DNA from: Candidatus Beckwithbacteria bacterium CG23_combo_of_CG06-09_8_20_14_all_47_9
GTDB taxonomy: Bacteria; Patescibacteriota; Microgenomatia; UBA1400; CG1-02-47-37
NCBI GenBank assembly: GCA_002772455.1
Contig: PCSQ01000086.1
Coordinates: forward strand, 1 to 11,704
Length of the DNA: 11,704 bases
Direction: 5' to 3'
Shown one piece after another: positions 431 through 11,554 of this stretch; position 1 is the stretch's first letter, and every line of letters begins with the position of its first letter. A program made the position numbers and the translations under genes. The notes below the pieces were generated by a model. The model ran no database searches. It was not told where the DNA came from and saw only the letters and a program-made list of their open reading frames with translations.

Positions 431-766
431 ATGGCTGTAGATTTCCCCACTTATGGAAAAATTGATGAAGACCCAACAACTTTTCCATATGGAAACCTTA
501 AGGGTCCGTTTAATCTTGCCGGGAAAACACCGGCACAAATTATTGAAGTTGTTCTCCCCTTTGTCTTTGTCATCGCCGGATTGATTTTATTTGTCATGTT
601 TATTTTCGGCGGCTTTACCATCTTTGTTTCTGCCGGCAGCCCGGAAAAAATGAAACAGGGCCAGGGCATGATCGTCAATGCCTTAATCGGCTTTTTAGTT
701 ATTTTTGCCGCCTACTGGATTATCCAGATTCTGGAAACCACTCTCGGGTTTAAAATCACCGCATGA
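431..766 (+). CDS. VirB2/TrbC-like pilin-family small membrane protein
   Basis: This 111-residue protein has a polar N-terminus of about 37 residues and no obvious signal peptide. Two membrane helices follow (about 40-65 and 80-104), joined by the turn SAGSPEKMKQGQG. It is closest to the protein at 8808-9119: both have ILF.M...GG in helix 1, an AG..EK.KQ turn and FAAYWI near the end of helix 2, including a 17-nt identical DNA stretch coding for FAAYWI. The family resembles VirB2/TrbC-type pilins of type IV secretion systems, but function is inferred from architecture only. No Shine-Dalgarno site precedes the ATG. Its TGA stop overlaps the ATG of the prenyltransferase gene (ATGA), so the two are probably translationally coupled. 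Confidence 0.8.
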   Translation: MAVDFPTYGKIDEDPTTFPYGNLKGPFNLAGKTPAQIIEVVLPFVFVIAGLILFVMFIFGGFTIFVSAGSPEKMKQGQGMIVNALIGFLVIFAAYWIIQILETTLGFKITA

Positions 767-1413
767 GCTTACCCCGGCATATTGCCATTATCTGCGACGG
801 CAACCGCCGCTGGGCTAAAAATAAAAGCCTGCCGGAATTTGCCGGCCACCGCCGCGCCGTCGAAGTCACCATGGAGCAGTTAATCGACCGCTGCGTTGAA
901 CTTAAAATTCCCTACTTAACTTTTTGGGTTTTTTCCACCGAAAACTGGCATCGGGGTAAATCATGGGTCGATAAATATTTCAAATTACTGCGGCAATTAT
1001 TTACCAAAAACTTCCAAAAACTCCACCAAAAAAACGTCAAATTAAACCTGATCGGCGACGTCACCAAATTACCTCAAGATATCCAAGATTTATTTAACGA
1101 GTGGCTTAACAAAACTAAAAATAATCAAAAACTGACCCTAACGATAGCCATCAACTACGGCGGCAGAGACGAGATTTTGAGAGCAATTGCAAAAGGGCCT
1201 TTCCCAAAACACTTAGACACGGTCGGCCTCCCCGACCCCGATCTGCTCATCCGCACCGCTCCCAACAACCACCGCCTGTCCGGCTTTATGCTCTGGCAAA
1301 TTGCCTACACCCAGCTCTATTTTACCGATACTTTATTCCCGGATTTTGATGGGAAAGAACTGGATAAAGCCATCGCCTGGTGGCAGGAACAAACACAAAA
1401 TCTGGGCGCATAG
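763..1413 (+). CDS. uppS: Isoprenyl (undecaprenyl-type) diphosphate synthase, cis-prenyltransferase
   Basis: This enzyme adds isopentenyl diphosphate units in cis to an allylic primer, giving the long polyprenyl diphosphate used as wall lipid carrier; it works at the membrane face. Visible family motifs in order are HIAIICDGNRRWAK (residues 6-19, with the Mg-binding Asp), GHRRAVE, TFWVFSTENW, AINYGGRDEI, and PDPDLLIRT followed by HRLSGFMLWQIAY. It is 216 residues, shorter than the 253-residue E. coli enzyme; the region before PDPDL (IAKGPFPKHLDTVGL) is compressed. Two key regions differ: RTSGE/RTGGE of the family reads RTAPNN, and the Glu of AELYF, which helps bind Mg in E. coli UppS, is Gln (TQLYF). 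DGNRR rather than DGNGR is common in archaeal and eukaryotic cis-prenyltransferases. The stop codon lies in the left arm of the palindrome at 1405-1506. The gene is coupled to the pilin-like gene upstream and faces the mevalonate operon that would supply its substrate. Confidence 0.93.
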   Translation: MSLPRHIAIICDGNRRWAKNKSLPEFAGHRRAVEVTMEQLIDRCVELKIPYLTFWVFSTENWHRGKSWVDKYFKLLRQLFTKNFQKLHQKNVKLNLIGDVTKLPQDIQDLFNEWLNKTKNNQKLTLTIAINYGGRDEILRAIAKGPFPKHLDTVGLPDPDLLIRTAPNNHRLSGFMLWQIAYTQLYFTDTLFPDFDGKELDKAIAWWQEQTQNLGA

Positions 1414-1506
1414 CGAAACACACAAATTTCAGGAGCGCAGTCGCGTTACCTAGGTGCATGGCACGCATGAGCACCTGGAAATTTCGTGTGCAAGCTATAC
1501 GAGCCG
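1405..1506. repeat. Large imperfect palindromic element between convergent 3' ends (element E1)
   Basis: The left arm (1409-1433) and right arm (1474-1499) form a long imperfect inverted repeat: ATAGC pairs with GCTAT, ACACAC with GTGTG, AAATTTC with GAAATTT, and AGG with CCT. An inner hairpin has arms AGGTGC (1452-1457) and GCACCT (1470-1475). Each arm supplies a stop codon: TAG at 1411-1413 ends uppS and, on the other strand, TAG at 1495-1497 ends the decarboxylase gene. Bounding blocks GGCGCA (1405-1410) and CGAGCCG (1500-1506), plus an internal TGAGCAC, recur in the same order in the insertion within the HMG-CoA reductase gene. No T-run follows on either strand, so it is not a classic intrinsic terminator, though it could still act as a bidirectional one. 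This stretch is also the only non-coding gap of any size between the prenyltransferase and mevalonate genes. Confidence 0.75.
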
Positions 1507-2352
1507 AGCGCCGCGGCCAATTTTATCCCGCCTCACCTTTATCACACACCCGGTGTGTGATAATTTATCTATTAGTTTATTTTCATTTTTCGGCTCGCAA
1601 AACACAAACACATTTTGCCCGGTATTGATCGTGAAATAGTTTTCCAAACCCTCTTCTCTCCATTTTCTCACTGACCGTATTACCGTTTTTGTTGCTGGCA
1701 AAAGATAATTCAACGGCGGTGATTGTGTCTGCATCACCCGATGCATATTTAAACAGTCTTCTTCCATAATTTCACCAATAACGGTAAAGTTTTTTTCTTT
1801 GATGGCGGATTTTATGCGGCTGATTTTACTATTTATTCCTTTAATTCTGGCTTGATAAAATGGGCTCGTTGCCGCCAATTCCTGCCCGGCAGTCGAACTC
1901 ACCGATTTCTTTTTATCACTCAAAATCACCACCAAAATCCGCAAATCCCAATAATCTGCCGGGAAAATAGTTTTGGCATAAGAAGTTTGATCATTACCAG
2001 TCACCCACTCCGCCCAACCGTCGGGAATGCTACGGCAGGCCGAACCCGAACCCAAACGCGCCAGCCTCGACAAATCTTTTTGGGAAAGTTTTAAACCGGC
2101 GGCGGCGGCCATGGCCACTGTCATAGCCGCATAGCCGGATGCCGAAGAAGATAAACCCACACTCATAGGGAAATTATTTTCGGTAATAATTTTTGGCTCG
2201 CTGTTTTTTGCCCATTCCACCGTCGTCGTTGTTCCTAATTTGGTCAAATTGACCGACAACGAAGCATTTGCCGGCAAACGGAGCTTTTCATCAACTTTCC
2301 CCCAATACTTAATCAGGGCCACATTAACCGGGGCAAATGCCGTCGCTTTCAT
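1495..2352 (-). CDS. mvaD: Diphosphomevalonate decarboxylase-like GHMP protein (catalytic Asp replaced by Asn)
   Basis: The family phosphorylates the 3-hydroxyl of mevalonate 5-diphosphate and decarboxylates it to isopentenyl diphosphate. Motifs seen: NVALIKYWGK (residues 10-19), LPANASLSVNL (26-36), the ATP loop GLSSSASGYAA (66-76), RLGSGSACRS (99-108) with the active-site Arg, and SDKKKSVSSTAG (145-156). The C-terminal motif that normally reads DAGPN, with the catalytic Asp, reads NTGQN at residues 243-247, while the active-site Lys (KYWGK) and Arg (ACRS) remain. At 285 residues it is shorter than the usual 320-330. Its ATG overlaps the TGA of the upstream kinase gene (ATGA), and it is last in the operon. 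The codons for LSHTGCVI lie in a perfect palindrome at 1539-1563. Being last after two kinases supports a decarboxylase role, but the Asn leaves open a different phospho-mevalonate substrate, a kinase-only activity or a divergent mechanism. Confidence 0.88.
   Translation of the reverse strand: MKATAFAPVNVALIKYWGKVDEKLRLPANASLSVNLTKLGTTTTVEWAKNSEPKIITENNFPMSVGLSSSASGYAAMTVAMAAAAGLKLSQKDLSRLARLGSGSACRSIPDGWAEWVTGNDQTSYAKTIFPADYWDLRILVVILSDKKKSVSSTAGQELAATSPFYQARIKGINSKISRIKSAIKEKNFTVIGEIMEEDCLNMHRVMQTQSPPLNYLLPATKTVIRSVRKWREEGLENYFTINTGQNVFVFCEPKNENKLIDKLSHTGCVIKVRRDKIGRGARLV
1539..1563. repeat. Perfect 25-nt palindrome inside the decarboxylase gene
   Basis: The arms TTATCACACACC (1539-1550) and GGTGTGTGATAA (1552-1563) are exact reverse complements around a single central C. 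The palindrome lies in the coding sequence for LSHTGCVI near the C-terminus of the decarboxylase. It could fold as a cruciform in DNA, or act as a dyad operator, or be a small repeat tolerated near a protein end. The sequence alone does not choose between these. Confidence 0.85.
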
Positions 2353-5874: not shown

Positions 5875-6827
5875 AATTTTGTCAGGCTCAAATTATCGCT
5901 GCCGGCACCCGAACCGTAACTGGTTACCAAAATTTTTTGCTGTTTTTTGGCTTTTTCCAGAACGGCGGCCAAACCCAACAAACTGGAGGCCGAGTACGGG
6001 TTGCCGATCTGCGGCACTAAAAATCCGGTTTTCAATTGGCTCTCGCTCGCCCCCAAAATTTTTGCCGCCCGGGTGGGAAACTTGCTGTTGGGCATATGAA
6101 AAACCACGTGTTGATAATCGCTGATTTTTGTTTTAGTTTGCCTTAAAAACTTTTCCGTCGCCCCAACCACGTGCCTAAAATAAGCCGGCCCGGCCGTAAA
6201 TCTCCCGGCGTGGCTGGGGTATTTTTCTCCCTGCCGGCGCCAAAAATCCGGCGTGTCCGAAGTAAAGCTGCCAACCTGGTTTAACCGGGCTAACCAACGG
6301 AATTTTTTATTTCCCAAAATATAAGCCCCGGCCCCGGCCCCGGCGGTAAATTCCAGCGCATCGCCCGGTTTGGCCTGGGCCACGTCCGCGCCGATCGCCA
6401 AACCGCAATCAATCAACCCGGCTTCAATCAAACCGGCAATTAAGATAATCGCGCTCGTTCCCGCCTTGCAGGCAAATTCCAAATCCACGGTCAAATAGTC
6501 GTTGCCCACCCCTAAAATCTCCCCCACGATCGAGCCTGTCGGCTTAACCGCATACGGATGACTTTCACTCCCGACTATAATCGCTCCGATTTGTTCCGGT
6601 TTGATTTTCGACTGAAGTAGTGCCAGCCTGGCCGCCTCGACGGACAAACTAACCGTGTCTTCGTCCCGGTCGGCCACGGCTTTTTGTTTTACGCCTAGTG
6701 AAGCAGTCACCTGTTCGGGCGATTTTCCCTGCTTTTGGGCAATCTCCGCCACACTGGCCCGGCCGGCCGGAATATATCCGCCGAAACCAACCACACCAAC
6801 TTTGGTAAAAGACTTACTGTTAATCAT
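5871..6827 (-). CDS. Hydroxymethylglutaryl-CoA synthase, archaeal type
   Basis: This enzyme condenses acetyl-CoA with acetoacetyl-CoA to HMG-CoA. Signature segments are VGVVGFGGYIP at the start, GSESHPYAVKPT, the catalytic Cys in DLEFACKAGTSA, IGADVAQAKPGDALEFTAGAG, DTPDFWRRQGEKYPSH, the active-site His in VVFHMPNSKFP, IGNPYS and YGSGAGSD. About 318-322 residues is compact compared with the archaeal enzymes of about 350, and much shorter than eukaryotic HMGCS. Two starts are possible. The ATG at 6839 gives MGHVMINSK and lies just after the arm of an inverted repeat, while the ATG at 6827 gives MINSKSFTK and overlaps the reductase stop by 8 nt. I chose 6827 because a short overlap is the operon norm and the extra residues show no family match. 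Neither start has a clear ribosome site. Confidence 0.93.
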   Translation of the reverse strand: MINSKSFTKVGVVGFGGYIPAGRASVAEIAQKQGKSPEQVTASLGVKQKAVADRDEDTVSLSVEAARLALLQSKIKPEQIGAIIVGSESHPYAVKPTGSIVGEILGVGNDYLTVDLEFACKAGTSAIILIAGLIEAGLIDCGLAIGADVAQAKPGDALEFTAGAGAGAYILGNKKFRWLARLNQVGSFTSDTPDFWRRQGEKYPSHAGRFTAGPAYFRHVVGATEKFLRQTKTKISDYQHVVFHMPNSKFPTRAAKILGASESQLKTGFLVPQIGNPYSASSLLGLAAVLEKAKKQQKILVTSYGSGAGSDNLSLTKL

Positions 6828-7992
6828 AACGTGCCCCATTAAGGTCCGACCTTATTGGAGATTTGTTTCCTAAAAGGTCGGACCTTGTGGGTTTTGGTCT
6901 CCCAAGTTTCTGATGCGCCTTGGCCAAATCCCCACTGGCCAGAGCGGCCGTCAAAGACAGCTCCCCTGCCAATACCGATCCGCCGATAATTCCAGCCAAT
7001 TCGATGGCGCTCGGATTACCCAGCATTTTTAATACCTGTTGCTGACTCGGCAAACGCGTCCCGCCGCCAACCATCCCCACCATTAAATCCGGCAGATAAA
7101 CGGAAAAATACAAATCCGGCGCAGGCCAAGCAGAACGACGCGCGCAACCTCTCGCCTCTCCCGGCAGGTGTGAGCACGTCGCACGTCTGCTGGCCGAGCC
7201 GGACTGTAACTCTGCTATGGTCACTCCCAAGCTCGCCTCCACCACGTGGGCCATATCCTGCCCGGTGGCTAAAAATAAAGCGGCCGCAATATTGGCAAAG
7301 TGGCCATTGGCTCCCATCGACCCGGACATAATCGAACCCAGCCACTGTTTACTTTTGACCACTTCAATAATTTTTTCCGGAGTGGTTTTTAAAACATCTT
7401 TAACAATAATTCTTTTGATCATCGCTTCCGCCCAAACTTTTTTCCCTCGGCCCTCAATAAAATTTAGCCAGTTGGCTTTTTTATCCACACAAAAATTGCC
7501 GGATAAAGCCAGACATTTTATTTTTAATTTATCCTCGATCAGTTCAACAATTTTTTGCGTGGCAATTGTCACCATATTCATCCCCATGGCTTCGCCGGTA
7601 TTAAACCTGAACCTCAACCACGCGTTTTTTCCGGCCATGGTTGACGTAAAATCCACCAGTTTTAAATGTTGACTGGTGGCTTCAGCGGCTTTTTGGACTA
7701 ACTTAAAGTTGTCTTTTACCCAATTGATTAATTTTTTCCCCTCGTCTATCCCCTTTACCCGAAATACCGGTCCGCGCGTGGCCCCGACGTTTTCCACTAA
7801 AACTTTAATGCCGCCGGATAAACGCGTGGCTTTACAACCGCGATTAACCGAAGCAACTAATGCTCCTTCTGTAGTCGCCAAAGACAAATCATAGTTTTTA
7901 TTATTCACCAATAATGGCCCGGCTTGACCTAATGGCACTTTAGTCCAACCAATCATATTTTCAATATTCCCGGTTAACGACTGCGCCATAAC
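6820..7992 (-). CDS. HMG-CoA reductase, class I, with an in-frame hairpin-encoded insertion
   Basis: This enzyme reduces HMG-CoA to mevalonate, probably with NADPH as in other class I enzymes. All four catalytic residues are visible: Glu41 in TTEGALVASVNRG, Lys in FCVDKKANWLNFIEGRGK, Asp in ATGQDMAHV, and the C-terminal His in AKAHQKL. The substrate motif ENMIGWTKVPLGQAGPL is near the N-terminus. The ATG at 7992 is preferred: the longer frame to 8154 is an out-of-frame reading of the overlapping membrane protein. The result lacks the N-terminal helices (about 30-40 residues) that usually precede ENxIG. Residues 264-292 are a 29-residue Arg/Ala/Ser-rich insertion between TIAELQ and DLYFSV, where the family has only a short turn; it is coded by an 87-nt palindrome. 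The tail after the catalytic His reads RSDL twice, coded by a pair of inverted repeats. It is about 390 residues in total and overlaps its neighbours on both sides. Confidence 0.9.
   Translation of the reverse strand, partial: VMAQSLTGNIENMIGWTKVPLGQAGPLLVNNKNYDLSLATTEGALVASVNRGCKATRLSGGIKVLVENVGATRGPVFRVKGIDEGKKLINWVKDNFKLVQKAAEATSQHLKLVDFTSTMAGKNAWLRFRFNTGEAMGMNMVTIATQKIVELIEDKLKIKCLALSGNFCVDKKANWLNFIEGRGKKVWAEAMIKRIIVKDVLKTTPEKIIEVVKSKQWLGSIMSGSMGANGHFANIAAALFLATGQDMAHVVEASLGVTIAELQSGSASRRATCSHLPGEARGCARRSAWPAPDLYFSVYLPDLMVGMVGGGTRLPSQQQVLKMLGNPSAIELAGIIGGSVLAGELSLTAALASGDLAKAHQKLGRPKPTRSDLLGNKSPIRSDLNGARYD
6841..6886. repeat. Pair of 13-nt inverted repeats coding for the HMG-CoA reductase tail
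   Basis: AAGGTCCGACCTT (6841-6853) and AAGGTCGGACCTT (6874-6886) are exact reverse complements, 20 nt apart. Each copy is also nearly palindromic by itself (AAGGTC, one base, GACCTT), so the pair can be read as inverted or as direct repeats 33 nt apart. Both copies are translated as RSDL in the last 25 residues of HMG-CoA reductase, and the distal copy lies just before the possible HMG-CoA synthase start at 6839. In the mRNA this could be a hairpin with a 20-nt loop sequestering that start, or the copies could be tandem protein-binding dyads. Confidence 0.85.
7116..7202. repeat. 87-nt palindromic element inserted in frame in HMG-CoA reductase (element E2)
   Basis: The ends CCGG match as an inverted repeat, and the arms pair imperfectly over about 33 nt: on the plus strand, CCGGC, GGCC, AGCAGA and CG at the left pair with CG, TCTGCT, GGCC and GCCGG at the right. 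The centre holds ACCT (7147-7150), a loop and AGGT (7166-7169). It shares with the palindrome at 1405-1506, in the same order, GGCGCA at the left end (7118-7123), an ACCT core, TGAGCAC (7170-7176) and CGAGCCG at the right end (7195-7201), although the stems differ. It is much richer in G+C than the flanking gene. Its length is exactly 29 codons, and it has no stop codon in the reductase frame. Confidence 0.8.
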
Positions 7993-8312
7993 CTCATCCA
8001 CCAATAACTGATATAACTGCCCACCGCCATAAAGCCAAGAATGCCTAAGCTGAACATTAATTTTGCCCCCATACCCCACGCAGGCGTTGTCGCTAGTAGC
8101 CTCCGGCCAGCCCAGGTGAAAAGCGTGGCTAAAAATAAAACGTACGCCGGCCAACCAAGAATCAACAATTGCTGCGATCGGTCTTTTTCCCGGGACAGTA
8201 CTGCCAAAGTTTTAAACGGGTGCCAGGCTAAACCGAGGGAATTCCGGACAAATAAATAACTTTCCTTAAACGAAAGGAGTAAACCTAACCTGGCGATTTT
8301 CTTGACTTGCAT
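7974..8312 (-). CDS. Small two-helix membrane protein downstream of the sigma factor (possible anti-sigma)
   Basis: I do not recognise a named family. The protein of 112 residues has a basic N-terminal half, probably cytoplasmic (FKESYLFVRNSLGLAWHPF, then a REKDRSQQ stretch). Two membrane helices follow (about 50-68 and 84-104), and the end is short and basic (MRLWRSR). The ATG at 8312 lies inside the end of the sigma factor gene (47-nt overlap); no later in-frame ATG leaves a comparable protein, and the WHPFKTL...EKDRS segment looks genuinely coding. Its 3' end overlaps the HMG-CoA reductase start by 19 nt. A membrane protein following and overlapping an ECF-type sigma gene is the common position of an anti-sigma factor, so that is a reasonable but unproven role; no zinc-binding HxxxCxxC motif is present. 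Confidence 0.7.
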   Translation of the reverse strand: MQVKKIARLGLLLSFKESYLFVRNSLGLAWHPFKTLAVLSREKDRSQQLLILGWPAYVLFLATLFTWAGRRLLATTPAWGMGAKLMFSLGILGFMAVGSYISYWWMRLWRSR

Positions 8313-8787: not shown

Positions 8788-8801
8788 TATTGTACTATAT
8801 T
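8788..8801. promoter_or_regulatory. Divergent start region between sigma and pilin genes
   Basis: Only 26 nt separate the ATG of the sigma gene (8781, minus) from the ATG of the pilin-like gene (8808, plus). The gap is A+T rich and holds back-to-back -10-like hexamers: TATATT (8796-8801) on plus, ending 6 nt before the pilin ATG, and TACAAT (8794-8789) on minus, ending 7 nt before the sigma ATG. Both would place transcription starts at or next to the ATG, giving leaderless or nearly leaderless mRNAs. No consensus -35 is seen at the right distance on either strand, so other sigma specificity is possible. Confidence 0.4.
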
Positions 8802-8807
8802 CAAAGT

Positions 8808-9119
8808 ATGGCGTTTGATATTGGACAGGAATTGTGGCTTGATGAAAGTAAAACAACTATCCAGTCAAAATTAGGAACAACTTTATTTCCTAGTTTTTGG
8901 GTAATCATTAAAAACATTTACGTGTTAACTGGGATCATCTTATTTTTTATGATCGTGGTGGGCGGCGTGGGCATGATTGCCAATGCCGGTAACGCGGAGA
9001 AACAAAAACAATCGAGCCAAACCATTACCAGCGCCGTCATCGGTTATGTAATTATGTTTGCCGCCTACTGGATCGTCAAAATCATCGAAATTGTTACCGA
9101 TAAAAAAATCTTTTTATGA
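8808..9119 (+). CDS. VirB2/TrbC-like pilin-family small membrane protein
   Basis: This is the first gene of the right-hand pilin array, 103 residues from ATG 8808 (MAFDIGQEL). An in-frame TTG at 8790 would add six residues but sits in the divergent promoter gap. A polar N-terminus of about 30 residues precedes two membrane helices (about 33-57 and 72-96) joined by NAGNAEKQKQSSQ. It is the closest relative in the window of the gene at 431-766 (shared ILFFM, GG, AG-EK-KQ and FAAYWI positions), although the whole mevalonate island lies between them. Its TGA overlaps the next ATG (ATGA). Function is inferred from the family only. Confidence 0.8.
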   Translation: MAFDIGQELWLDESKTTIQSKLGTTLFPSFWVIIKNIYVLTGIILFFMIVVGGVGMIANAGNAEKQKQSSQTITSAVIGYVIMFAAYWIVKIIEIVTDKKIFL

Positions 9120-9472
9120 TTTTACAAAGTGTTTTCGGCAATATTGGTAATCCGTTAACCAAAGACACTGTTTCCGGTACTGGTTACGGCGATCTAGCCA
9201 GCACCGATCTGGTCAAATTCTTAAATAATGTCGTTGCCCTAATCATCGTCATTGCCGGCATTTGGACGGTGTTTAACTTTATTAGCGCCGGTTATATTTA
9301 TTTAAACTCCAACAACCAGCCGCAGAAATTAACCGACGCCGGTAATAAAATTTTACAGTCGGTCATCGGTCTCGCGATTGTGGCCGCCGCCTATACCATT
9401 GCCGGCATTCTCGGATTTATCCTGTTTAAAGACGCGACTAAATTATTAGACTTTAAATTATTTGAATTATAA
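9116..9472 (+). CDS. VirB2/TrbC-like pilin-family small membrane protein
   Basis: This protein of 118 residues has a polar N-terminus of about 36 residues (SVFGNIGNPLTKDTV...), a first helix (about 37-60), a turn reading LNSNNQPQKLTDAGNK in place of the usual SGGNPEK, and a second helix (about 78-102) ending AGILGFILFKDATK. That ending matches AGILGLIFFGDATA in the gene at 9838, so the two form a subgroup within the array. It starts on the stop of the preceding gene (ATGA) and ends 2 nt before the next ATG. Confidence 0.8.
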   Translation: MILQSVFGNIGNPLTKDTVSGTGYGDLASTDLVKFLNNVVALIIVIAGIWTVFNFISAGYIYLNSNNQPQKLTDAGNKILQSVIGLAIVAAAYTIAGILGFILFKDATKLLDFKLFEL

Positions 9473-9474
9473 CT

Positions 9475-9834
9475 ATGCCCGTACCAACACTAAAAGATAT
9501 CGGCGTATTTAAATCTATCTCCGGTAAAGGTTATTTAGAAACAACTTCGACCGGGGCGCCGACGGCTGACTTGACTAAAATAGTTTCCAATCTTTTGGCG
9601 ATCATTACCATAATTGCCGGCGTCGGTTTTTTGTTTTACTTTATCTTCGGCGCGGTCAATTGGATCACTTCCGGCGGCGACGCTCAAAAAGCGGCGGCAG
9701 CCCGCAATACGATTTTAAACGCGGTAATCGGTTTGGTGATTACCGTAATTGCCTACCCGGCGATATTATTAATTAGTAAATTAGCTGGCATTCCCCTGGC
9801 CGATCCGGGAAAATTATTTACCCAATTTCAATAA
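9475..9834 (+). CDS. VirB2/TrbC-like pilin-family small membrane protein
   Basis: This protein of 119 residues has a polar N-terminal 34 residues with a Gly/Thr-rich stretch (SGKGYLETTSTGAPTADL). Helix 1 (about 38-62) ends FGAVNWITSGG, followed by the turn SGGDAQKAAAARN, helix 2 (about 79-104) and a short polar tail. The FxFxxGAVxW(I/T)xSGG pattern is shared with the gene at 10175, the likely sister copy. No Shine-Dalgarno site is seen; spacing to both neighbours is 2-3 nt. The pilin role is by family resemblance. Confidence 0.8.
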   Translation: MPVPTLKDIGVFKSISGKGYLETTSTGAPTADLTKIVSNLLAIITIIAGVGFLFYFIFGAVNWITSGGDAQKAAAARNTILNAVIGLVITVIAYPAILLISKLAGIPLADPGKLFTQFQ

Positions 9835-9837
9835 ATT

Positions 9838-10185
9838 ATGGAATTAACAGATTTTTTTGGGACCAGCGGCGCCGAGAAACCATCAATTCTGGATAAATAT
9901 ACCGGCAATGATCCCGGCGCTTTGATTCTTTTTGCCAACAATATTATGAAGGTCATGATCTACGGCTCGATGATTATTGCCGTCGTCAATCTGCTGGTTT
10001 CCGGCATCCAATTTATGAGCTCCTCCGGCAACCCGGAATACATCAAAACCGCTTCCGGCCGGATCTGGATCTCGCTGTTAGGCCTAGTGGTGGCCGGCGC
10101 CAGTTTGGTGATTGCCGGAATTTTAGGTTTGATTTTTTTCGGCGACGCCACCGCTATTATTTCTCCAGCTATCTATGGTCCATAA
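9838..10185 (+). CDS. VirB2/TrbC-like pilin-family small membrane protein
   Basis: This protein of 115 residues has a polar N-terminus (MELTDFFGTSGAEKPSILD...), helix 1 (about 36-60), a turn SSGNPEYIKTASGR, and helix 2 (about 75-101) with AGILGLIFFGDATA near the end. That places it with the gene at 9116 as a subgroup. It overlaps the next pilin-like gene by 11 nt, which suggests coupled translation. Confidence 0.8.
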   Translation: MELTDFFGTSGAEKPSILDKYTGNDPGALILFANNIMKVMIYGSMIIAVVNLLVSGIQFMSSSGNPEYIKTASGRIWISLLGLVVAGASLVIAGILGLIFFGDATAIISPAIYGP

Positions 10186-10552
10186 TTTACTCGCTCAAAC
10201 TAAAACACCGTTGCCAAGTATTTCCGGTTTTGACGGCGGGTTATTCCAATCGGCGGGCAGCACCCCGGACACCCGCCTGACTCAAATAATTTCCAACATC
10301 GTCGGCGTTTTAACTATTTTTGGCGGCTTGGCTTTTTTAACCTGGTTTGTCATCGGGGCCGTTCAGTGGACCGCCTCCGGCGGCAACCCGGAGCAAATGA
10401 ACAAAGCCAAAAGCCAAATGAGTACGGCCATCGCCGGTTTATTTGTTTTAATTTTATCAATGGCCGTAGTTTGGATTTTGGGGAAAGTTACCGGGTTGGA
10501 TATAATCAACCTAGAAGTATTAATTAATAAGGTAGGCCCTAATGCCGATTGA
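10175..10552 (+). CDS. VirB2/TrbC-like pilin-family small membrane protein
   Basis: This protein of 125 residues is one of the longest complete members. The N-terminal 45 residues are polar and rich in Ser/Gly/Pro (KTPLPSISGFDGG). Helix 1 (about 47-70) ends WFVIGAVQWTASGG, the turn is SGGNPEQMNKAKSQM, and helix 2 (about 85-110) is followed by a hydrophobic tail (GLDIINLEVLI). The turn is the clearest form of the shared motif. The start overlaps the previous gene by 11 nt and the end overlaps the next by 11 nt. Confidence 0.8.
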   Translation: MVHNLLAQTKTPLPSISGFDGGLFQSAGSTPDTRLTQIISNIVGVLTIFGGLAFLTWFVIGAVQWTASGGNPEQMNKAKSQMSTAIAGLFVLILSMAVVWILGKVTGLDIINLEVLINKVGPNAD

Positions 10553-10853
10553 AAATAAAGCCATTCCCGCCTTAGCCACAATGACCGGCGGTCAGGCCTT
10601 TGCCAGCTACATTGCCATTTTCTGGCAGTTCATGGTTATCGTCGGCGGCTTGGCCGTCCTGCTGTATCTAATCTGGGGAGCGCTCGACTGGATCTTTGCC
10701 GGCAACAACGCCGACCGGATGAAACGGGGCAAAGACAAGCTTTTTGATGGCATTTTCGGTTTGGTACTGCTGGTTTTATCTTACCTGATCATTAAAATTA
10801 TTTCCACGGTTACCGGCTTAAATATCGTCAATCCTGACTGGCCGACGCTCTAA
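10542..10853 (+). CDS. VirB2/TrbC-like pilin-family small membrane protein
   Basis: This protein of 103 residues has a short N-terminus (MPIENKAIPALATMTGGQAF), helix 1 (about 22-47) with LLYLIWGALDWIFAGN, a basic turn NNADRMKRGKDK, helix 2 (about 63-88), and a tail TGLNIVNPDWPTL. The IWGALDW pattern links it to the two following genes (IWGGIQW, VWGGIQW). The first nine bases of the gene (ATGCCGATT) are the same as those of the gene at 11222. It ends 3 nt before the next ATG. Confidence 0.8.
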   Translation: MPIENKAIPALATMTGGQAFASYIAIFWQFMVIVGGLAVLLYLIWGALDWIFAGNNADRMKRGKDKLFDGIFGLVLLVLSYLIIKIISTVTGLNIVNPDWPTL

Positions 10854-10856
10854 CTT

Positions 10857-11189
10857 ATGGCTAAACTCACCAACATTGACTCCGAAGTCCAGCGCAGCAA
10901 TTTTTTCAAATTTGACTCCATTGGCGAATTTATTGTCAATATGTTCCAAGTGACTTTGATTATTGGTTCAATTATGACTTTCTTTTATTTAATCTGGGGC
11001 GGCATCCAGTGGATTACTTCCGGCGGCAACCAGGAAGCCGCCAAAGGCGCCAAAGAAAAAATCACCGACGCGATTTTCGGTCTGGTTTTTTTGGCCGCCG
11101 TCTGGATAATCTGGCGCCTGATTATTTATTTCCTGGGAATTACCTCGTCAGTTCGGGGTCCGTTTAATCTCAAGTTACCCCAGCCTTGA
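10857..11189 (+). CDS. VirB2/TrbC-like pilin-family small membrane protein
   Basis: This protein of 110 residues has a polar N-terminus of about 23 residues, helix 1 (about 24-50) ending LIWGGIQWITSGG, the turn SGGNQEAAKGAKEK, helix 2 (about 66-92) with AAVWIIWRLIIYFLGI, and the tail VRGPFNLKLPQP. A similar KGPFNL occurs in the N-terminal region of the gene at 431 (14 nt shared). It is most like the following gene. Its TGA stop lies inside the predicted -35 hexamer TTGACA of the next gene's promoter. Confidence 0.8.
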   Translation: MAKLTNIDSEVQRSNFFKFDSIGEFIVNMFQVTLIIGSIMTFFYLIWGGIQWITSGGNQEAAKGAKEKITDAIFGLVFLAAVWIIWRLIIYFLGITSSVRGPFNLKLPQP

Positions 11190-11215
11190 CAAAAATTTAC
11201 TAACATGACCATAAT
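11186..11215 (+). promoter_or_regulatory. Predicted sigma-70 promoter for a leaderless pilin transcript
   Basis: A perfect -35 hexamer TTGACA (11186-11191) lies 18 nt from a -10 hexamer CATAAT (11210-11215, one mismatch to TATAAT). The ATG of the next pilin-like gene is at 11222, 7 nt after the -10, where transcription would begin, so the mRNA would be leaderless. The gap is the only intergenic space in the right-hand array longer than 3 nt (32 nt), which fits an internal promoter. Confidence 0.6.
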
Positions 11216-11221
11216 CAACTA

Positions 11222-11554
11222 ATGCCGATTATCAAAGCCGCGCTGGCCCAAGCCTCGATTACCATCAAAGAACCGCAAGCCGGGGTTAAAGACATCGGCA
11301 AATTTATGTCCGCCGCCATCCAGGTGGCCATGATTATTGCCGCCATCCTGACCTTTGCCTTTTTGGTTTGGGGCGGCATCCAGTGGATCTTGTCCGGCGG
11401 CGATAAAACTCAAACTCAAGCCGCCCGCGACCGGATCACTATGGCCTTGGTCGGCCTTGGCATTGTGGCCGCCGCCTGGGCTTTAATGAAAGTCATCGGT
11501 TACTTTTTCGGCATCGACGTCTTTCAGTTCAACATCCCCACTGCCGGCGGCTAG
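11222..11554 (+). CDS. VirB2/TrbC-like pilin-family small membrane protein
   Basis: This protein of 110 residues has an N-terminus (MPIIKAALAQASITIKE) that is partly amphipathic and may be a short signal or helix. Helix 1 (about 32-57) ends FLVWGGIQWILSGG, the turn is SGGDKTQTQAARDR, and helix 2 (about 72-97) is followed by FGIDVFQFNIP. It is the sister of the gene at 10857 (shared WGGIQWI.SGG and YF.GI). It has its own predicted promoter and may start a new transcript that continues into the last, truncated gene. Confidence 0.8.
   Translation: MPIIKAALAQASITIKEPQAGVKDIGKFMSAAIQVAMIIAAILTFAFLVWGGIQWILSGGDKTQTQAARDRITMALVGLGIVAAAWALMKVIGYFFGIDVFQFNIPTAGG

Follow-up and report, generated by a model that had tools for sequence, protein, structure and literature searches.

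What is the long extra loop in the HMG-CoA reductase of Candidatus Beckwithbacteria bacterium CG23_combo_of_CG06-09_8_20_14_all_47_9? We addressed this question in a stretch of 11,704 nucleotides from this genome (G000), hereafter called the window, where an initial annotation had described the DNA of the loop as a palindrome inserted in frame. We consider it likely that the insert is one copy of a dispersed, non-autonomous, REP/RPE-like hairpin family, whose single-stranded DNA would be recognised in trans by a putative enzyme and which is tolerated here as a protein loop.

The extra loop of HMG-CoA reductase

The gene lies at 6820-8154 on the minus strand. It was identified by homologues and by a PF00368 match that covers residues 9-371 of the translation; the listed start is a TTG, and translation probably begins downstream of it. 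As had been proposed, the frame has no stop across the insert and the four catalytic residues are intact: the positions that we take to be catalytic (Glu E48, Lys K177/K178, Asp D252 and His H366) are invariant in a 25-row alignment (A4). The 87 nt at 7116-7202 fold at -47 kcal/mol compared with a mean of -34.5 for shuffled sequences (z -4.02), and none of 200 shuffles equalled this value. The GC content of the insert is 0.71, against 0.48 in its flanks. These results, together with the PF00368 assignment, bear out the description of an imperfect, in-frame palindrome that is richer in G+C than its surroundings.

The 87-nt edges given for the element are approximate because divergence is too high to place them to the base; a covariance model puts them at 7115-7203 on the plus strand (89 nt). 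It is unlikely that the insert arose by an assembly slip, because the database cluster representative P0001 carries the same insert. This protein, which stands for a cluster of 19 member sequences, differs from the 444 residues encoded in the window at one position.

The annotation had expected only a short turn at this place in related enzymes, and this is what most of the listed homologues have. Among 120 matches listed of 7,978 (E 1e-20), the segment between TxAEL and LYFS measures 3-4 residues in 104, 7-8 in seven and 15-72 in nine. In the window's cluster it has 30 residues (TIAEL to DLYFSV). In G001, a genome of the same genus whose enzyme is 77% identical over the queried part, it reads TTAELEKRDLYFSV, that is, TTAEL-EKR-DLYFSV. 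Thus, the extra loop is where it was said to be, but compared with G001 the enzyme is longer by a net 27 residues (81 nt), not by exactly 29. A Beckwithbacteria-labelled homologue, P0021, is 71% identical to the window's enzyme. P0004, which is 75% identical, has a 33-residue loop that, judged from protein, is apparently of the same hairpin type in another frame. In a tree of 27 HMG-CoA reductases the hairpin loop requires two changes, and a single origin is still compatible with it.

The TxAEL-LYFS loop looks like an insertion hotspot, mostly as judged from protein. P0002, P0003, P0009, P0013 and P0025 carry apparent REP products there, derived from different and shorter palindromes as far as the proteins tell. 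Short inserts are present in P0007, P0026 and G003, the last of them a short palindromic one seen in DNA, and long inserts of 72 and 56 residues occur in P0024 and P0052.

An AlphaFold model of the window's enzyme, built with a 25-row alignment, had a mean pLDDT of 78.4 and a pTM of 0.76. Insert residues 270-298 are mostly below pLDDT 50 and form a loop between the strands at 263-269 and 299-309. Confidence is low also at the termini and at residues 173-180 and 226-232. The insert is therefore predicted by the model to be a disordered loop at the tip of a beta-hairpin, and translation through it is plausible.

Copies, distribution and architecture of the family

A DNA search found the core of the hairpin at a second genomic site, with 93% identity over 41 nt, in frame in mnmA of the same genome. 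The core of copy 1 is also common to G000:C28 and G001:C24. We built a covariance model, R1, from eleven aligned copies (MAFFT alignment A2; L042 and L045/L006 were excluded from it and are present in A3), and a second model, R2, from an alignment of 31 matches (30 distinct). Copy 1 scores 76.1 bits with R1 (E 8.8e-19, copy 1 itself being among the sequences that built the model) and 72.4 bits with R2. The window holds another copy at 1409-1499 on the plus strand (R1 40.2 bits, E 4.2e-8; R2 56.6 bits, E 5e-12; fold -34.2), which overlaps the last codons of the converging genes uppS (763-1413, plus strand) and mvaD (1495-2352, minus strand). In G002, too, uppS has a copy at its 3' end. The initial suggestion of an inserted palindrome similar to the Rickettsia palindromic elements (RPEs) is thus supported from two sides: G001 and most of the listed homologues are without the loop, and G000 has two copies besides that of HMG-CoA reductase.

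R1 found three copies in G000, five in G001, 11 in G002 and three in G003, including those from which it was built. Counts from searches over more than 40 genomes are lower bounds, as stricter filters were applied and no more than 49 candidates per genome were scored in the order, and no more than 11 in the class and the phylum. R1 matched at least 8 of 88 genomes of the order. In the class (Microgenomates-type Patescibacteria), R2 matched at least 40 of 373 genomes, with up to nine copies found in any one of them. In a sample of the phylum whose share outside the class was not given, at least 4 of 379 genomes matched, and all four belong to the class. Within the samples searched, the family is confined to this one class of Patescibacteria, the Microgenomates group. 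When one genome per species was scanned with a strict core pattern, which misses many members, ten stretches were returned, seven from Shapirobacteria, two from Gottesmanbacteria and one from Roizmanbacteria, all of which we take to be Microgenomates. Some of what the core-pattern search returned, L009 and L020 among them, matched by chance. Six matches on viral contigs have no matching arms and look like chance as well.

The copies share one hairpin plan, with arms that are paired but variable and a conserved, strand-specific, mismatched core. In copy 1, read on the plus strand, an outer helix H1 (TCCGGC at 7115-7120) pairs with GCCGGA at 7198-7203, as judged by the fold and by two-sided changes in A2. 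It is followed by an unpaired GCA (7121-7123) opposite GA (7196-7197). The left variable arm (7124-7140) pairs with the right one (7177-7195), as indicated by the fold and, for the left arm, by covariation. Between them lies the conserved core (7141-7176), CGCGCAA ... TGAGCA, with C.A and G.A mismatches and a variable apex. The general plan is common to 30 distinct copies from eight genomes, 75-117 nt long and mostly under 100 nt: a variable H1 of about 6 bp, an internal loop that in 19 of 31 aligned rows is GCA/GA, arms that are paired but vary in sequence, and a core close to CGCGCGCAA, an apex and GTGAGCACG. The C.A mismatch is present in 27 of the 31 rows, with A.A in the other four, and the G/A mismatch in 29.

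In the 31-row alignment, which was fitted to the structure, 86.2% of cells are paired compared with 66.8% after shuffling, 25 of 27 pairs show two-sided changes, and covariation is 0.481 compared with 0.164. The unfitted MAFFT alignment of 11 copies gave a covariation of 0.367 compared with 0.170 and two-sided changes in 14 of 27 pairs, including all six of H1. Related sequences may beat such shuffles without any structure, but when the partners were slid by 1-3 columns pairing fell to 27-43%. The number of further pair types in this alignment was ordinary (77 of 500 shuffles were as high). G160 has seven dispersed copies that are closely alike: over 87 positions, six of them match at 82-87 and the other at 77 or more. 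Because the six match in H1 too, H1 is part of the element in this genome.

We also considered whether arms follow the locus and the core follows the genome. This idea failed a permutation test, in which 327 of 5000 permutations for the arms and 1690 of 5000 for the core were as high. The mnmA copy of G002 has a left arm resembling that of G000 and a right arm resembling other G002 copies, which hints at recombination.

Genomic context and alternative explanations

We examined the context of 57 copies, 22 from the family, eight from elsewhere in the order and 27 from the class. Most are intergenic, and by our reading ten are inside genes and in frame. Besides the HMG-CoA reductase of G000, these are in mnmA (G000, G002 and G052) and, twice, in one ATP-grasp gene of G002. 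Four more were assigned from the annotated domain family and an open frame only: one in peptide deformylase (G193), two in radical SAM proteins (G385 and G390, apparently at one site) and one in a class II tRNA-synthetase-like protein (G333). L095 was dropped from this count, as its start codon was probably called too early, and was kept in the orientation count below. Two of the three reading frames on the coding side are used. By eye, the HMG-CoA reductase insert and the first ATP-grasp insert are in one frame and the mnmA and second ATP-grasp inserts in another, and the two radical SAM copies also differ in frame.

Several of these sites differ between relatives. The HMG-CoA reductase insert is present in G000 and absent from G001, and the first ATP-grasp insert of G002 is absent from six orthologues. 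At the second ATP-grasp site the orthologues have no detectable hairpin and loops of varying length, with a longish loop in G000 in which no element is detectable. The MnmA loop after ATGHYA varies widely in length among the 16 of 17 sequences of the order that could be read; a hairpin is detectable in G000, G002 and G052, and the other loops may contain decayed elements. The proposal that a mobile or copied element was inserted into the HMG-CoA reductase gene is thus strengthened by presence and absence and by the dispersed copies, while movement itself is still inferred.

The alternative that survives best is a cis-acting RNA element at the 3' ends of genes (an mRNA stabiliser, processing site or attenuator), with the in-gene copies being accidental. 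We regard it as unlikely, but it accounts for two features of the data. In the order, all 24 copies that could be placed have one orientation relative to the gene that contains or precedes them (30 were examined and six were unplaceable; some loci are represented by two genomes). Additionally, where a hairpin lies between co-directional genes, it is mostly close to the upstream stop codon: in 25 of 34 cases (12/14, 4/4 and 9/16 in the three sets) the codon ends no further than 9 nt before the hairpin and no deeper than 5 nt within it. However, in the rest of the class orientation is mixed (nine opposite and 12 same, L095 included among the latter, for 21 placeable copies of 27), and short intergenic gaps alone could place surviving inserts beside stop codons. 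The ten in-gene copies also argue against a 3'-end element. If selection acted on one RNA strand, G.U pairs should be in excess, whereas the paired cells contain G.T and A.C about equally (27 and 22), and of 30 copies just 13 fold better as the strand that is transcribed in the order. Thus, no RNA strand is favoured, and this balance, taken with the strand-specific fixed mismatches, points to recognition at the level of DNA.

An improbable explanation is that the hairpins are REPs (or BIMEs) mobilised by RAYT transposases of the same genomes. These genomes, of about 0.5-1.0 Mb, do contain Y1_Tnp matches (seven in G000, seven in G001, six in G002 and two in G003), most of them of RAYT-like length, and short palindromes flank many of these genes (L188-L207). 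One element of G001 is 1.7 kb from a Y1 gene, and on contig C2 of G164 (about 20832-24227) an element and a Y1 transposase gene are about 3 kb apart. However, the palindromes that flank the RAYT-like genes are short (about 20-27 bp) and have other sequences. G000-G003 have 22 Y1 genes, and R2 was run on 20 stretches surrounding 20 of them; no element directly flanked a Y1 gene, and the one at 1.7 kb was the only element to appear. IS200-like Y1 proteins are present in 12 of 16 carrier genomes compared with 6 of 10 controls, and are absent from the element-rich G160, G357, G305 and G204. The REP tags are also rare: in the first or last 18 nt of the 57 copies, GTAG occurs in four, and CGTC is near one end in three on the model strand and in 12 on the other strand (GACG in the first 18 nt).

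Integron attC sites act as single-strand hairpins, with a variable stem sequence, a constant fold and strand-specific unpaired bases. The hairpin logic of our family is alike, its copies are commonly 3' of genes, and one G002 contig has five sites in the same orientation. That they are attC-like recombination sites of a cell-encoded integron is nevertheless very improbable. No integron integrase (TIGR02249 over the cut-off) was found in any of 28 genomes, and weaker matches occur also in all 14 control genomes. By our reading the neighbours are largely housekeeping genes, and the element ends differ from attC in being without its R-box sequences.

Finally, although relatives do hold other inserts in the same enzyme loop, we can virtually dismiss the idea that this is an ordinary variable loop whose GC-rich codons fold by chance, given the z score of -4.0, the 93% match of its core to an unrelated gene of the same genome, and the R1 score, even with copy 1 in that model.

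Known elements and a proposed mechanism

In-frame palindromes have been described for Rickettsia, Wolbachia and, as short REPs, some other bacteria (PMC10969869, PMC3733652, PMC3767692). RPEs are the closest to our family in behaviour, and REPs come next. The RPE families and their Wolbachia equivalents are reported to be palindromes of about 100-150 bp in small genomes, some of them in frame in unrelated genes, and different inserts are possible at one site of orthologues (PMC3767692, PMC10969869); RPEs are described as encoding a conserved peptide (PMC10969869). The likeness to our hairpins is in the in-frame palindrome plan. The hairpins described here are mostly shorter, use two reading frames with no single conserved peptide frame, have arms that covary and, in the core-pattern scan, were found in Microgenomates-type records only.

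GTAG and CGTC REPs are described as dispersed hairpins that are mostly downstream of genes, with some intragenic and sometimes two in one gene, and CGTC REPs are stated to lack a dedicated transposase (PMC3733652). Our family has this dispersal in common with them, including the placement mostly downstream, at times inside genes and at times twice per gene. It differs in that its hairpins are about three times longer, have a mismatched core and carry no constant GTAG or CGTC tag. MITEs, given as 70-300 bp in the same source (PMC3733652), are likewise small and dispersed. We rejected this assignment: there is no constant terminal inverted repeat, as H1 varies at all six pairs. An exact repeat of at least 4 nt directly outside H1, as a target-site duplication would leave, was found in just 2 of 56 copies. 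The earlier statement that no named family matches holds as far as tested. None of four sequences compared with Rfam (the window, L003, L005 and L006) matched a family at E <= 1, and we found no report of such elements in Patescibacteria, CPR or Microgenomates among the papers listed in a literature search limited largely to open-access journal articles.

We return to the dispersed hairpin family and propose a model for its spread. We propose that the folded single-stranded DNA of the element would be recognised by a putative enzyme acting in trans. Near-constant, strand-specific mismatches in a stem of otherwise free sequence are what would be expected if a protein reads a folded DNA strand. 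Elements may land widely, and the survivors would be those that fell into a narrow space between genes or into a protein loop that tolerates them, in either stop-free frame of the core. In-gene copies would be translated through, as is thought for the Rickettsia palindromic elements. Movement is suggested by the sequences themselves, that is, by presence and absence and by near-identical dispersed copies, and the enzyme and the non-autonomy of the family are presumed. None of the Y1 proteins and integron integrases that we looked for in carrier genomes emerged as the mobilising enzyme.

Like the failure to find a mobilising enzyme or target-site duplications, two further observations weigh against this reading. 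First, many copies appear to be old, judging by the loci shared among G000, G001 and G002. By inspection, five of the eight G000/G001 loci have an apparent counterpart at the same gene in G002, with gene pairs 48-76% identical: mnmA, uppS, a RimK-like gene, a 497-codon gene (as fetched) with a Maf-like neighbour, and a transporter-like gene. These shared loci indicate that several copies are probably old, and little movement may be left in the family. Second, the model does not account for the single orientation of all 24 placeable copies in the order.

A broader version of the model is one that we hold only tentatively, and with more doubt than belief. It would be a class-wide Microgenomates system in which a folded strand of about 90 nt, read by its mismatched core and closed by arms that vary freely yet stay paired, is moved by a putative recombinase and has repeatedly seeded loops in housekeeping proteins. 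If this is true, one element family generates protein insertions in bacteria with genomes of about 1 Mb. The hairpin family explains unusual additional loops of HMG-CoA reductase, MnmA and ATP-grasp proteins, and the covariance model of this class-wide family with its strict fold can be used for annotation. It also becomes possible to test by what route hairpin DNA gets into streamlined genomes and what enzyme mobilises it.

The window has other features of its own. HMG-CoA reductase ends in a C-terminal tail that is encoded in frame by another palindrome pair (AAGGTCCGACCTT ... AAGGTCGGACCTT, 6841-6886). This pair is unrelated to the hairpin, resembles a REP pair and is found also within the uppS ORF of G002. 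In the homologues P0006 and P0012 the tail is similar, but GSDP replaces RSDL. The C-terminal part of the mvaD ORF contains TTATCACACACCCGGTGTGTGATAA at 1539-1563, and the same palindrome core flanks RAYT-like Y1 genes in G002 and G003 (L205 and L206). Two ORFs at 4-766 and eight at 8790-11554 bracket the mevalonate gene cluster and encode small proteins of 103-140 residues that, by eye, resemble one another and seem membrane-bound.
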